From assembly GCA_021779635.1 (NCBI GenBank), contig JAJYAH010000271.1:1-8452 (forward strand): a stretch of DNA of 8,452 nt. Direction: 5' to 3'. The stretch's first letter is position 1. Every line of letters begins with the position of its first letter. The position numbers and the translations under genes were made by a program. The stretch comes from Pseudomonadota bacterium (GTDB taxonomy: Bacteria; Pseudomonadota; Alphaproteobacteria; Rhizobiales; Xanthobacteraceae). Below are positions 1 to 8,233 of the stretch, in pieces. The notes beneath the pieces are model-generated. The model was not told the origin of the DNA, searched no databases, and worked only from the letters and a program-made list of their open reading frames with translations.

Positions 1-177
1 CAAACCTTCTGCGGCTCCTATGCGAAGGTCGCGGCCTATCTCGACGAGATCGCCGAGATCGACGGGGTGGCGGGCGTGATGATGACCTTCGACGATTTCC
101 TGATCGGCCTCGACCAGTTCGGCCGCCATATCCAGCCGCTGATGAAGAGCCGTGGCCATATCCGGATGGCGGCATGA
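1..177 (+). CDS. RutA-family flavin monooxygenase, 3' end only
   Basis: This is the last 58 codons of a luciferase-like, FMN-dependent monooxygenase; the rest lies upstream of the window. The readable part has the RutA-family C-terminus: a GSY segment, a helix with LDEIAEI, the block VMMTFDDFLIG, then QFGRHIQPLMK. By eye, 29 of 48 aligned positions match the next gene, so the two are paralogs rather than one split gene. Canonical RutA ends in QPLMQCRA, whereas this protein has QPLMKSRG, so the C-terminal Cys is Ser. The TGA stop shares an ATGA with the start of the next gene, which implies co-transcription and translational coupling. The family assignment is secure. Substrate and activity cannot be judged because the FMN and oxygen pocket lies in the missing N-terminal part. 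Confidence 0.88.
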   Translation, partial: QTFCGSYAKVAAYLDEIAEIDGVAGVMMTFDDFLIGLDQFGRHIQPLMKSRGHIRMAA

Positions 178-1250
178 AAGTCGGCGTCTTTCTTCCCATC
201 GGCAGTCGTGGTTGGTTGATCTCGACCACTTCGCCGATGACCATGCCGAGCTTCGACCTCAACCGCACGGTCGCCCAGCGCGCGGAGTTCTACGGCCTCG
301 ACTTCGCGCTCTCGATGATAAAGCTGCGCGGCTACGACGGTCCCAGCGAATATTGGGTGCACAATCTGGAATCGTTCACGCTGATGTCGGCGCTGGCGGC
401 GGTGACGCAGCGCATCCAGTTGTTCGCCTCCGTCGCGGCGCTGACCATGCCGCCGGCGCTGGTCGCGCGCATGACCTCGACCATCGATTCCGTGGCGCCG
501 GGGCGGTTCGGCGTCAATATCGTCACCGGCTGGCAACCCAAGGAATACCAGCAAATGGGCCTGTGGCCGGGCGAGGCGCATTTCGCGCGACGCTACGACT
601 TTGTGTCCGAATATGTGCAGGTGATGCGCGATCTCTGGACGCAAGGCCGCTCGGATTTCAAGGGCGAATATTTTCAGATGGACGATTGCGTGCTGAGCCC
701 ACGTCCGTCTGCGCCGATAAAGATCGTCGGCGCGGGGCAAAGCGATCGCGGCATGAGGTTCGTGGCCGAATATGGCGATTACAATTTCGTCGGCGCGCCG
801 GGCCTCAACGATTGCAGCCGCGTGGTCGATGTGGTCGCGCGCGTCTCGAAGGCCGTGCGCCGCTCCGGGCGCGATGTCGGCGCGCTGCTGCTGCTCATGG
901 TGATCGCCGACAAGACCGATGAGGCCGCCTTCGCCAAATGGGAGCATTACAAGGCCGGGACCGATCTGGTGGCGTTGCAATGGCAGGCGACGCAGGCGGG
1001 GGCGGATGCGAAGGCGCAGGATGGCTCGACCGCCTCCAATCTGGCGCGCGTCATCAAAGACCCGCAGCCGACCGGCATATTGAAGCTGATCGGCTCCTAT
1101 GAGAGCGTCGCACGGCGTCTCGACGAGATCGCCGCCATTCCCGACCTCAAGGGCGTGATGCTGACGTTCGACGATTTCATCGTCGGCATGGAGCAGTTCG
1201 GCGAACAGATCCAGCCGAGGATGAAGTGCCGCGCCGACCTGGGGCGGTAA
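174..1250 (+). CDS. RutA-like FMN-dependent monooxygenase (divergent paralog)
   Basis: The product is a 358-residue luciferase-like TIM-barrel monooxygenase closest to RutA, which in E. coli (about 363 residues) opens the uracil ring with FMN and O2. Pocket positions known for RutA are kept: L46, M48, I49-K50, N115, W120, E124, R140-Y141 and S190; position 86 is Ser rather than the E. coli Thr. It aligns without gaps to the minus-strand RutA over the first 172 residues, with about 112 identities counted by eye. It diverges later: NFNMGTLVGS of the canonical protein is TGILKLIGS here, and GVNTPTA is GLNDCSR. Those changes suggest a different substrate. The ATG overlaps the previous stop as ATGA, and no strong Shine-Dalgarno precedes it, consistent with coupling. 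An electron-supplying flavin reductase is not in the window. The enzyme is probably cytoplasmic. Confidence 0.92.
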   Translation: MKVGVFLPIGSRGWLISTTSPMTMPSFDLNRTVAQRAEFYGLDFALSMIKLRGYDGPSEYWVHNLESFTLMSALAAVTQRIQLFASVAALTMPPALVARMTSTIDSVAPGRFGVNIVTGWQPKEYQQMGLWPGEAHFARRYDFVSEYVQVMRDLWTQGRSDFKGEYFQMDDCVLSPRPSAPIKIVGAGQSDRGMRFVAEYGDYNFVGAPGLNDCSRVVDVVARVSKAVRRSGRDVGALLLLMVIADKTDEAAFAKWEHYKAGTDLVALQWQATQAGADAKAQDGSTASNLARVIKDPQPTGILKLIGSYESVARRLDEIAAIPDLKGVMLTFDDFIVGMEQFGEQIQPRMKCRADLGR

Positions 1251-1296
1251 ATCCGCCCAATGCGCGGGCAGACGGCGCTTTTTTGGCCTGAAGCTA

Positions 1297-1316
1297 ATTT
1301 CACGGCCGGATGAAAT
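1297..1316. promoter_or_regulatory. Inverted repeat upstream of the transporter operon
   Basis: ATTTCA and TGAAAT form a perfect 6-bp inverted repeat around an 8-bp spacer that contains CGGCCG. It lies about 60 bp before the binding-protein ATG, inside the 127-bp gap after the monooxygenase gene. A CTAAT motif, the element reported in E. coli GcvA sites, overlaps its left edge at 1294-1298, and the window encodes a GcvA-like LysR protein. It could be an operator or a short RNA hairpin. I see no convincing sigma-70 promoter in this gap, so the role is inferred. Confidence 0.35.
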
Positions 1317-6436: not shown

Positions 6437-6476
6437 GGCGCACGAGAGGCTGGCACGAAGCCGCCCGGCGCACGAG
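6437..6476. repeat. Direct repeats upstream of the LysR gene
   Basis: GGCGCACGAG occurs exactly at 6437-6446 and 6467-6476, 30 bp apart start to start, with a related GGCACGAAG between them at 6452-6460. Thirty bases is close to three helical turns, so a protein could bind the copies on one face. The gap also holds a weak TTGACC (complement of 6476-6481) with a poor -10 candidate. The role is speculative: it could be an autoregulatory site, or chance in GC-rich DNA. Confidence 0.35.
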
Positions 6477-6524
6477 GTCAAAGATTTCGCGTAACGCCTC
6501 GCATTTGGGCGGCGCCGCGCGGTC

Positions 6525-7184
6525 TCAGCGCAACGCGCCCAGGTAGCGGAGCGCGTAGGCCTCATCGACGACCTCGGCGTATTTGGCGCTCATGTCGTAG
6601 AGATTGGCCTCGTGCGGTCCGGCCGCGCGGTCGCCGCAGGCGTCGCGCACGACGAGCGGAATGAAGCCGTGGCTCATGACGTCGATGCAGGTCGCGCGCA
6701 CGCAGCCGCTGGTCGTCAAGCCGGTCAGCAGCACGGTGTCGATCCCCGCCGCCGTCAGCGTCGAGGCGAGCGACGTGCCGAAAAAGGCGGAGGGGTATTG
6801 TTTGGTGACGATGAGTTCGTCCGCCTCGGGCGTCAGGTCGCGCGGAAAGCCGGCGAGCGGGTGGCCGCGCTCGAAGCAGGCGGTGACGGGCGCCTTGCGA
6901 CGGAAAATGCCGCCGTCGAAGCCGCCGGGCGTAACGACGACCTGCGTCAGGATCACCGGAACCTGCGCCGCCCGCGCCGCCGCGCGCACGCGCAGCGCCG
7001 AGGCGAGCGCCGCCTCGACGCCAGCATAGAGCGGCGAGGTCGGCTCGAAATAGGCCTCGCAGAAGTCGATCAGCAGCAGGGCCGGACGCCGTCCGGGTTC
7101 GAGTTGGTGATGAAAGCCCGCGCGGGCGTAGTTGAGGTCGAGATCCTCGCTCAAGCCGCCGCCGACAATTTGTTGGCGCGGCAT
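6525..7184 (-). CDS. Isochorismatase-superfamily cysteine hydrolase, N-carbamoylsarcosine amidohydrolase-like
   Basis: The product is a 219-residue cytoplasmic amidohydrolase. The catalytic triad of the superfamily is visible as D40 (LLLIDF), K128 (VTKQY) and C161 (TSGCVRAT). The sequence fits the N-carbamoylsarcosine and maleamate amidohydrolase branch better than E. coli RutB: it has PGRRPALLLID, TKQYPSAFFGTSLAST and CGDRAAGPHEANLYD, where RutB has TGIATNVCVEST. A carbamoyl-releasing reaction is therefore likely, giving carbamate (CO2 and ammonia) plus an amine or acid. It follows rutA closely. The ATG at 7184 overlaps rutA by 34 bp; an in-frame TTG at 7154 would give a TTGA overlap and a 209-residue protein starting SEDLDLNYARAGF after Met. 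Neither start has a strong Shine-Dalgarno. It may do the RutB step or degrade a creatinine-type intermediate. Confidence 0.88.
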   Translation of the reverse strand: MPRQQIVGGGLSEDLDLNYARAGFHHQLEPGRRPALLLIDFCEAYFEPTSPLYAGVEAALASALRVRAAARAAQVPVILTQVVVTPGGFDGGIFRRKAPVTACFERGHPLAGFPRDLTPEADELIVTKQYPSAFFGTSLASTLTAAGIDTVLLTGLTTSGCVRATCIDVMSHGFIPLVVRDACGDRAAGPHEANLYDMSAKYAEVVDEAYALRYLGALR

Positions 7185-8233
7185 TGCATCAGCGGCTGGA
7201 TGTGCTGGCCGAAATTGTCGATGCCCTCCACGAAATCGTCGAAGGTGAGCATCAGGCCCTTGGTGCCGCGCGCCGCCGCCGCCTCGTCGAGCAGTTTGGC
7301 GACCGTCGCCCAGGAGCCGACGAGGGTTCCCATGTTGAAGTTCACCGCCTGATCCGGCAGGTTGATCGTCTTGGCGGTGCCGCTATCGGCGGCGGCCTTG
7401 TCCTGGCTGCCCTGGTCGGCCATCCAGAGCAGCGCGTCGACGTCGACGCCCGCTTTGTAGTTGAGCCATTTGGCCATCGCCTTCTCGTCGGTCTCGTCGG
7501 CGATGACCATGAACAGCACATAGGCGCCGACGTCGCGCCCGGTCTTGGCGGCGGATGCGACCAATTGATCGGTGGATTTGGAATGCGCGGTCGGCGTATT
7601 CACGCCCGCGCCGAGGATGAAATTATAGTCGCAATAGGTCGCCGCGAAGTCCATGCCGACTGGGCTCTGACCCGCCGCGACCAGTTCGATCTTGTGGGCG
7701 GGCTGCGGCTTCATGTGGCAGTCGGTCATCGTGAAGAACTTGCCCTTGAAGTTGGACGATCCCTTCTCCCAGAGATCCTTCATCACCTGCACATATTCGG
7801 TCGAATATTCGTAGCGGTGGCCGAAATAGGCGTCGCCCGGCCACATGCCCATCTGATCGTATTCGGCCTTGGCCCAGCCCGAGACGATGTTGATGCCGAA
7901 ACGGCCGCCCGAAATCGAGTCGATGGTAGTCGCCATGCGCGCCACCATCGCCGGCGGCAGGGTCAGGACGGCGGTGGAGGCGAACAGCTTGATTTTCGAG
8001 GTGACGGCCGCGAGGCCCGCCATCAGCGTGAAGCTTTCCAGATTATAGTCCCAGAACTCGCTTTTGCCGCCGAAGCCGCGCAGCTTGATCATCGAAAGCG
8101 CGAACTCGAAGCCGTATTTTTCGGCGCGCTGCACGATCTCCTTGTTGAGGTCGAAGGTCGGCTTGTACTGCGGGGAGGTCGTCGAGATCAGCCAGCCGTT
8201 GTTGCCGATCGGAATGAAGACGCCCAGATCCAT
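7151..8233 (-). CDS. rutA: Pyrimidine monooxygenase RutA
   Basis: The product is a 360-residue luciferase-like monooxygenase very similar to E. coli RutA from end to end. Examples are PIGNNGWLIST (8-18), FALSMIKLRGFGGK (44-57), NLESFTLMAGLAAVTS (64-79), NMGTLVGSW (300-308) and the ending HIQPLMQCRA. Residues that in RutA bind FMN or position O2 are present: L46, I49-K50, N115, W120, E124, R140-Y141 and S190, with Ser instead of Thr at 86. RutA uses reduced FMN and O2 to cleave the uracil ring between N3 and C4, giving peroxyureidoacrylate. The ATG is backed by GAGGAG eight bases upstream. It is first in line after the GntR gene and overlaps the hydrolase. The partner flavin reductase RutF is not encoded in the window, so reduced flavin must come from elsewhere. 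A related ring substrate remains possible. Confidence 0.93.
   Translation of the reverse strand: MDLGVFIPIGNNGWLISTTSPQYKPTFDLNKEIVQRAEKYGFEFALSMIKLRGFGGKSEFWDYNLESFTLMAGLAAVTSKIKLFASTAVLTLPPAMVARMATTIDSISGGRFGINIVSGWAKAEYDQMGMWPGDAYFGHRYEYSTEYVQVMKDLWEKGSSNFKGKFFTMTDCHMKPQPAHKIELVAAGQSPVGMDFAATYCDYNFILGAGVNTPTAHSKSTDQLVASAAKTGRDVGAYVLFMVIADETDEKAMAKWLNYKAGVDVDALLWMADQGSQDKAAADSGTAKTINLPDQAVNFNMGTLVGSWATVAKLLDEAAAARGTKGLMLTFDDFVEGIDNFGQHIQPLMQCRANKLSAAA

Follow-up and report, generated by a model that had tools for sequence, protein, structure and literature searches.

Three RutA-family monooxygenase genes around a PotABCD-type importer in a Xanthobacteraceae genome: a candidate catabolic locus for cyclic nitrogen compounds

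Locus organization

The DNA analysed here, referred to as the window, is a stretch of 8,452 nucleotides from a member of the Xanthobacteraceae (assembly GCA_021779635.1, contig JAJYAH010000271.1). It holds genes of three flavin monooxygenases of the RutA family, RutA1, RutA2 and RutA3, together with a complete ABC importer. The window corresponds, with 4 mismatches, to the minus strand of contig C32 (11,808 bases) of genome G000, which has a size of 4.4 Mb in 624 contigs and is 79.7% complete. Twelve genes were called on the contig, which ends on both sides of the locus. An amidase gene, truncated on this contig, and an asparaginase-like gene lie outside and point away. They are followed by RutA1, RutA2, the binding protein, two permeases and the ATPase of the importer. 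The opposite strand then carries a LysR-family regulator, an isochorismatase-fold hydrolase and RutA3, and lastly the end of a GntR-type regulator.

The initial annotation had recorded the 3' end of one RutA-like gene (1-177, plus strand) and two complete genes (174-1250, plus strand, and 7151-8233, minus strand), and all three are present. Extension to the left showed the fragment to be the end of an intact gene, RutA1 (360 aa, C32:8615-9697, minus strand), which overlaps RutA2 (358 aa) at the sequence ATGA. RutA3 (360 aa) overlaps the start of the hydrolase gene by 34 bases. The two proteins complete in the window are identical, ungapped, at 112 of their first 172 residues, and the fragment matches its neighbour at 29 of 48 residues at the best ungapped placing; the earlier by-eye counts were exact in both cases.

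The importer is of the PotABCD type, with all parts present on the plus strand. It consists of a solute-binding protein with an SBP_bac_8 domain (1378-2679), distantly PotD-like, a PotB-like permease (2676-3596), a PotC-like permease (3593-4438) and a PotA-like ATPase with a TOBE_2 domain (4449-5477). All four proteins stay below the equivalog cut-offs of the polyamine transporter proteins PotA, PotB, PotC and PotD.

Family membership and active-site residues

RutA1, RutA2 and RutA3 score 547.5, 520.9 and 613.7 bits, respectively, with the RutA model TIGR03612, all above its curated cut-off of 498.3 bits. The luciferase-like monooxygenases SfnG, SsuD and NtaA share the Pfam family PF00296 with them, but their models score the three proteins at least 372 bits lower, and the same distance of at least 372 bits separates TIGR03612 from the next NCBIfam family for each protein. 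Chance is excluded as the source of the three matches; the genome, which is 79.7% complete, has no others at E <= 1e-60. In the survey genomes with a RutA of the E. coli clade (n=11) the model gives about 665-717 bits. Pairwise identity among RutA1, RutA2 and RutA3 is 54-61%, and they are 56-62% identical to the RutA of the E. coli rut operon (RutABCDEFG; RutA structures 6sgg, 6sgl and 5wan).

Residues were compared in an alignment of 73 rows, from which two outgroups had been taken out, with E. coli RutA numbered from MKIG (19 less than in the published numbering, as deduced from the motif). In this alignment the dioxygen-pocket positions L46, N115, V117 and F205 are the same as in E. coli RutA in all three intact proteins and T86 is replaced by S; the published E. 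coli pocket L65, T105, N134, V136 and F224 thus reads L, S, N, V and F in each. Mutations of E. coli RutA at T105, N134 and V136 are reported to abolish activity, save T105S with about 80% (PMC7662398). Trp139, which is reported to border the si-side cavity (PMC10005588), is Trp in 73 of 73 rows. Glu292 of the same cavity varies widely across the alignment and was dropped as an informative position. The activity that defines the RutA family is the oxidative opening of the uracil or thymine ring.

The three differ at positions 11-12. E. coli RutA, RutA1 and RutA3 have Asn-Asn at this place; near the N-terminus of RutA2, GSRGW replaces GNNGW. In the 32-row subclade of RutA2 (see below) the pair is Ser-Arg in 31 rows and Arg-Arg in one, so that Arg12 is present in 32 of 32, and position 12 is Asn in all other 41 of the 73 rows. 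This count was made on the tree subclade, as a previous figure of seven Ser-Arg pairs in the seven rows of group c2 was circular (a fixed-offset motif pick with only seven RutA2-type rows). The loop with positions 11-12 would face the substrate.

Phylogeny of the RutA proteins

The RutA tree (LG+C20) was built from 75 rows. For it, 105 hits were collapsed to 61 distinct sequences, pieces shorter than 300 residues were left out, the rows L007, L071 and L158 (distant) and L146 (partial) were dropped, and 18 of 120 listed database proteins were added by hand choice. The E. coli-type RutAs form a clade of 12 rows (support 100/99), and RutA1, RutA2 and RutA3 are all placed outside it. RutA3 groups with its ortholog in Methylocapsa sp. 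S129 and with L114 (three rows, 99/96) within a group of eight rows (93/82). RutA1 and RutA2 belong to a separate clade of 44 rows (100/97), in which RutA1 pairs only with the ortholog of Methylocapsa sp. S129 (100/100) and RutA2 is part of a subclade of 32 rows (100/99).

Placement of the trio in unrelated clades had been named beforehand as the result that would speak against a common set. The proteins are neither scattered over unrelated families nor sisters of one another; they are old paralogs of one RutA family. A recent tandem duplication is ruled out as the origin of the trio by the identity of 54-61% and by the tree, because each protein groups with its ortholog in Methylocapsa sp. 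S129, and RutA2 and RutA3 with orthologs of further genomes as well. Two strongly diverged rows on long branches, L120 (G379) and L119 (G145), with 56% and 44% identity to E. coli RutA, are possible further RutA subfamilies.

Among the database matches listed, at most 120 per list, the top 27 relatives of RutA1 share 77-93% identity, followed by a fall to 69% and below, and the top 37 relatives of RutA2 are all at least 80% identical. In the same lists some protein clusters of RutA1 and RutA2 have longest contigs of identical size (20454, 8451, 9438, 209089 and 5931), and so do clusters of RutA2 and the asparaginase-like protein (6922, 60732, 18419, 14523 and 50315). The equal sizes suggest that such genes lie on common environmental contigs. 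Equal sizes may also arise by chance, as is shown by one pair at 1376 bases, where the contig has no room for both genes.

Linkage to the importer

Blind scanning with the binding protein as query returned 80 loci. Four of them (L012-L015, identity 59-82%) have RutA-family genes in their flanks, whereas the other 76 (identity 50-57%) have no RutA; one remote luciferase-like hit of 24% at L071 was not counted. Full flanks were available for 47 of the 80 loci, three of which are RutA-linked. Five further loci (L127, L128, L129, L160 and L161) were picked through their RutA, which gives ten linked rows including the window. In the tree of binding proteins a single branch parts these ten from the 76 unlinked rows (SH-aLRT 95; a quick method, with long branches present), and RutA linkage requires 1 change on the tree versus 9.7 in shuffles. 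The initial proposal of several RutAs around one importer therefore stands as far as the binding-protein branch is concerned, which is RutA-linked in 10 of 10 cases versus 0 of 76 for the others, but RutA3 probably belongs to a second module.

Recurrence in other genomes

In Methylocapsa sp. S129 (G010, L012) the trio recurs with the same gene order and orientation, and RutA1 and RutA2 adjoin. The expectation that the trio is conserved with the importer elsewhere holds for this genome, but for only this one among the ten importer loci. The number of RutA genes per locus is three in the window and in Methylocapsa sp. S129, two in L013, where the second RutA and the binding protein are about 8.5 kb apart, one in L014, two in L015, four in L127, three in L128 and L129, and one each in L160 and L161. 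L127, L128 and L129 represent three species of another genus of the order; they combine 3-4 tandem, diverged RutAs with the same importer branch and also carry flavin reductases, an isochorismatase-fold hydrolase and an asparaginase-like gene. At E <= 1e-80 the whole genomes of L012, L013, L014 and L015 contain 3, 3, 3 and 4 matches to RutA, respectively; a single one of these scores under the cut-off.

The associated genes recur to varying degrees. An asparaginase-like gene is found in eight of the ten importer loci (not in L015 and L160), amidase matches in seven (not in L014, L015 and L128), a flavin reductase in seven (not on the contig of the window, in L014 and in L015) and isochorismatase-fold genes of several types in seven (not in L012, L014 and L015).

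Surveys of 385-398 genomes, taken together with a scan of the same-genus genomes and pooled over thresholds from 1e-60 to 1e-120, found at least one RutA match in 52 different genomes. In the surveys at most five candidates were scored per genome, so that the RutA counts of single genomes are minimum values. Two or more RutAs within about 10 kb occur in 8 of the 52 (G000, G010, G040, G259, G335, G379, G399 and G520). Among ten genomes of the same genus only Methylocapsa sp. S129 has a match at E <= 1e-60, and the locus is therefore accessory.

Hydrolases and regulators

The isochorismatase-fold amidohydrolase of the window (6525-7184, minus strand) aligns its Asp, Lys and Cys with those of N-carbamoylsarcosine amidohydrolase (1nba). 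Its top solved match is 3ot4/3uao, which we take to be the maleamate amidohydrolase of Bordetella. The amidase of the contig aligns best to malonamidase E2. The asparaginase-like protein (L011:9837-10829) has HGTATLEET versus HGTDT in type II enzymes. Thr12, Tyr25, Thr89, Asp90 and Lys162 are given as the five residues crucial for asparaginase catalysis in PMC8256714, and Asp90 as a member of the Thr-Lys-Asp triad in PMC12951835. As read from the alignments, the Asp90 position is Ala in the contig protein and the other four residues align.

The change of Asp90 to Ala is found in 8 of 8 different RutA-importer loci. Ala also occupies this position in all 120 homologs listed of the 7588 found (117 by pattern, three by printed strings), and Ala-type copies are present on two stretches that gave no RutA hit (G029 C1 and G808 C180). 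The change was rejected as a cluster-specific signature, as it is common to the listed homologs and is found away from RutA. Taken together, the set of hydrolases suggests that half-amides of small diacids or ureido acids may be the intermediates.

Two regulators complete the window. The LysR-family protein (372 aa, 5271-6389, minus strand) is encoded convergently with the ATPase, and the two 3' ends are antisense to each other over 207 bases (5271-5477). An overlap of equal length is present in Methylocapsa sp. S129 (L012 13937-14143) and absent in Lichenifustis (L013). Genes in fetched genomes were called with a home-made codon-score caller, of which the blast tables are independent. The tail of the LysR gene may be a mere open antisense frame. 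Only the C-terminal UTRA part of the GntR-type regulator (8311-8452, minus strand) is contained in the window; the gene extends past it, off the contig end.

Comparison with rut clusters

The locus resembles the E. coli rut operon in its oxygen pocket, apart from the change of Thr to Ser, in an amidohydrolase gene directly after RutA3 and in the RutE-like (307 bits) and RutF-like (248 bits) genes beside the Methylocapsa sp. S129 cluster. N-carbamoyl-D-amino-acid-hydrolase-like genes lie beside that cluster as well. It differs in having three RutAs instead of one, an ABC importer, and added asparaginase-like and malonamidase-like genes. No RutB (TIGR03614) above the cut-off of 377.95 was found in the 79.7%-complete genome; the best score is 95.2 bits, and the window hydrolase, with 39-41 bits, is excluded as a RutB. 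The best RutF score (TIGR03615, cut-off 254.75) in the same genome is 134 bits, on another contig, against 248 bits beside the cluster in Methylocapsa sp. S129. RutC, RutD, RutE, RutF and RutG are absent from the set of 12 called genes of the 11.8-kb contig, and RutC, RutD, RutE and RutG were not searched genome-wide. Filing of the locus as a rut operon was rejected, since both a RutB above cut-off and a canonical RutA are lacking.

RutA3-type genes are accompanied by a hydrolase of the window type (61-76% identity), and lack this importer nearby, at L132, L134 and L136 (20 kb each) and at L194 (10.8 kb, contig end). RutA3 and the hydrolase are therefore probably a separate second module, and the window seems to join it to a module of RutA1, RutA2 and the importer. 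At L132 the neighbours include RutE (313 bits), a RutF-like gene (248 bits) and a sugar-type ABC importer; dihydropyrimidinase-like genes, CobW-type GTPase genes and several amidase genes are also present, and L133, judged by open reading frames only, resembles this cluster. Such variant clusters, among them L134 and the Palleronia sp. LCG004 plasmid (L163), combine RutA with an isochorismatase-fold gene, RutE, amidases and a sugar-type ABC importer, and differ from the window by one RutA in the stretch seen and by the other importer family. Loci on Allorhizobium ampelinum S4 pAtS4e and on a Terrarubrum flagellatum plasmid have a RutA2-type gene (74% and 68%, respectively), the same importer branch, an amidase, isochorismatase-fold and nitrilase-type hydrolases and a flavin reductase. 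They differ in having one RutA each, and the Allorhizobium locus has no asparaginase-like gene.

A search by title and abstract start, mostly outside subscription journals, found no paper on multi-RutA loci. The nearest is the report on flavin monooxygenase expansions in SAR202 (PMC6946804), in the part available a genome-wide expansion in another phylum, with many paralogs of the wider superfamily, the RutA group among those named, and no importer-linked RutA locus. The RutA family itself is already known; what is new is the finding of a multi-RutA, importer-linked cluster in a genome in which no RutB was found.

Interpretation and alternatives

Gene content, family membership, the kept oxygen pocket, tree positions and importer linkage are direct observations. 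On these grounds it is reasonably probable that the locus is a composite catabolic island of two modules that acts on cyclic nitrogen compounds, either ureides or imides, and in which the three old paralogs would act on different substrates or in different steps. The PotABCD-type importer would take up a cyclic ureide or imide, a separate flavin reductase would supply reduced FMN, and the RutA-type enzymes would use a flavin-N5-peroxide to open the ring by breaking one of its amide bonds. The C-N hydrolases (asparaginase-like, malonamidase-like and isochorismatase-fold) would then remove nitrogen from acyclic half-amides or ureido acids. RutA1, RutA2 and the importer would form module one, and RutA3 with its hydrolase module two, which resembles a variant rut operon. 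The ring-opening chemistry, the substrate class, the division of labour and the order of steps are all predictions.

Several observations weigh against this proposal. No solved protein is more than distantly similar to the binding protein, and PotABCD-type importers are best known for polyamines. With Asp90 lost, activity of the asparaginase-like protein is uncertain. Neither a flavin reductase nor RutE nor a carbamoyl hydrolase is found among the 12 genes of the contig, which ends on both sides. At the other importer loci the isochorismatase-fold genes are of other types than that of the window (36% identity in L013), and in Methylocapsa sp. S129 RutA3 is present and the window-type hydrolase was not found at the locus, which speaks against strict pairing. 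In L014 and L015 the amidase hit is absent and the RutAs lie outside the RutA2 subclade.

An ordinary pyrimidine (uracil/thymine) operon with spare RutA copies, RutA1 and RutA2 being redundant, would agree with the scores of all three proteins as RutA and with the RutE-like, RutF-like and isochorismatase-fold genes near RutA3-type genes in L132 and L134. It is unlikely in view of the lack of a RutB above cut-off in the 79.7%-complete genome and of RutC-RutG among the 12 genes of the contig, the divergence of the paralogs with Arg12 fixed in the RutA2 subclade, and the 3-4 diverged tandem copies that another genus keeps in three species. RutA1 and RutA2 could also be subunits of one heteromeric monooxygenase, which would leave two enzymes rather than three. 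LuxA and LuxB are paralogous luciferase subunits that form such a heteromer, and the RutA1 and RutA2 genes adjoin both here, with the ATGA overlap, and in Methylocapsa sp. S129. Retention of the whole oxygen pocket in both proteins, and relatives of RutA2 without RutA1 at L013, L160 and L161, make this quite improbable.

The chances are slimmer still that the RutAs act in sequence on a larger ring system that includes a uracil-like ring (pterins, flavin breakdown products or purine derivatives). Several diverged RutAs at one locus would suit this, as would genes of the allantoinase family that resemble PuuE and lie close to the cluster in Methylocapsa sp. S129, L129 and L161; however, the loci have anywhere from 1 to 4 RutAs, which would be unusual for a pathway of fixed steps, and a PuuE-like gene near the canonical RutA of G018 (L139) shows that such genes are no mark of these loci. 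That chance or an assembly error brought the RutAs and the importer together is very improbable indeed: the genome is fragmented and incomplete, but order and orientation are the same in Methylocapsa sp. S129 and the binding-protein tree splits cleanly.

A more specific form of the composite island is put forward tentatively. Several non-redundant oxygenases that cleave amides by flavin-N5-peroxide, with a dedicated importer, might dismantle a multi-amide ring stepwise, the half-amides being cleared by an asparaginase-fold enzyme without Asp90.

Implications for the RutA family

All three proteins pass the curated model, and automatic annotation would therefore name each a uracil enzyme. The tree and the neighbourhoods indicate that the RutA label spans several old lineages whose partners differ. 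Through this label uracil use is probably annotated too often, and new ring-opening substrates may hide under it. RutA is a model for flavin-N5-peroxide chemistry, and natural paralogs that keep the oxygen pocket intact and differ at a position such as Arg12 would be a ready set for studying substrate choice.

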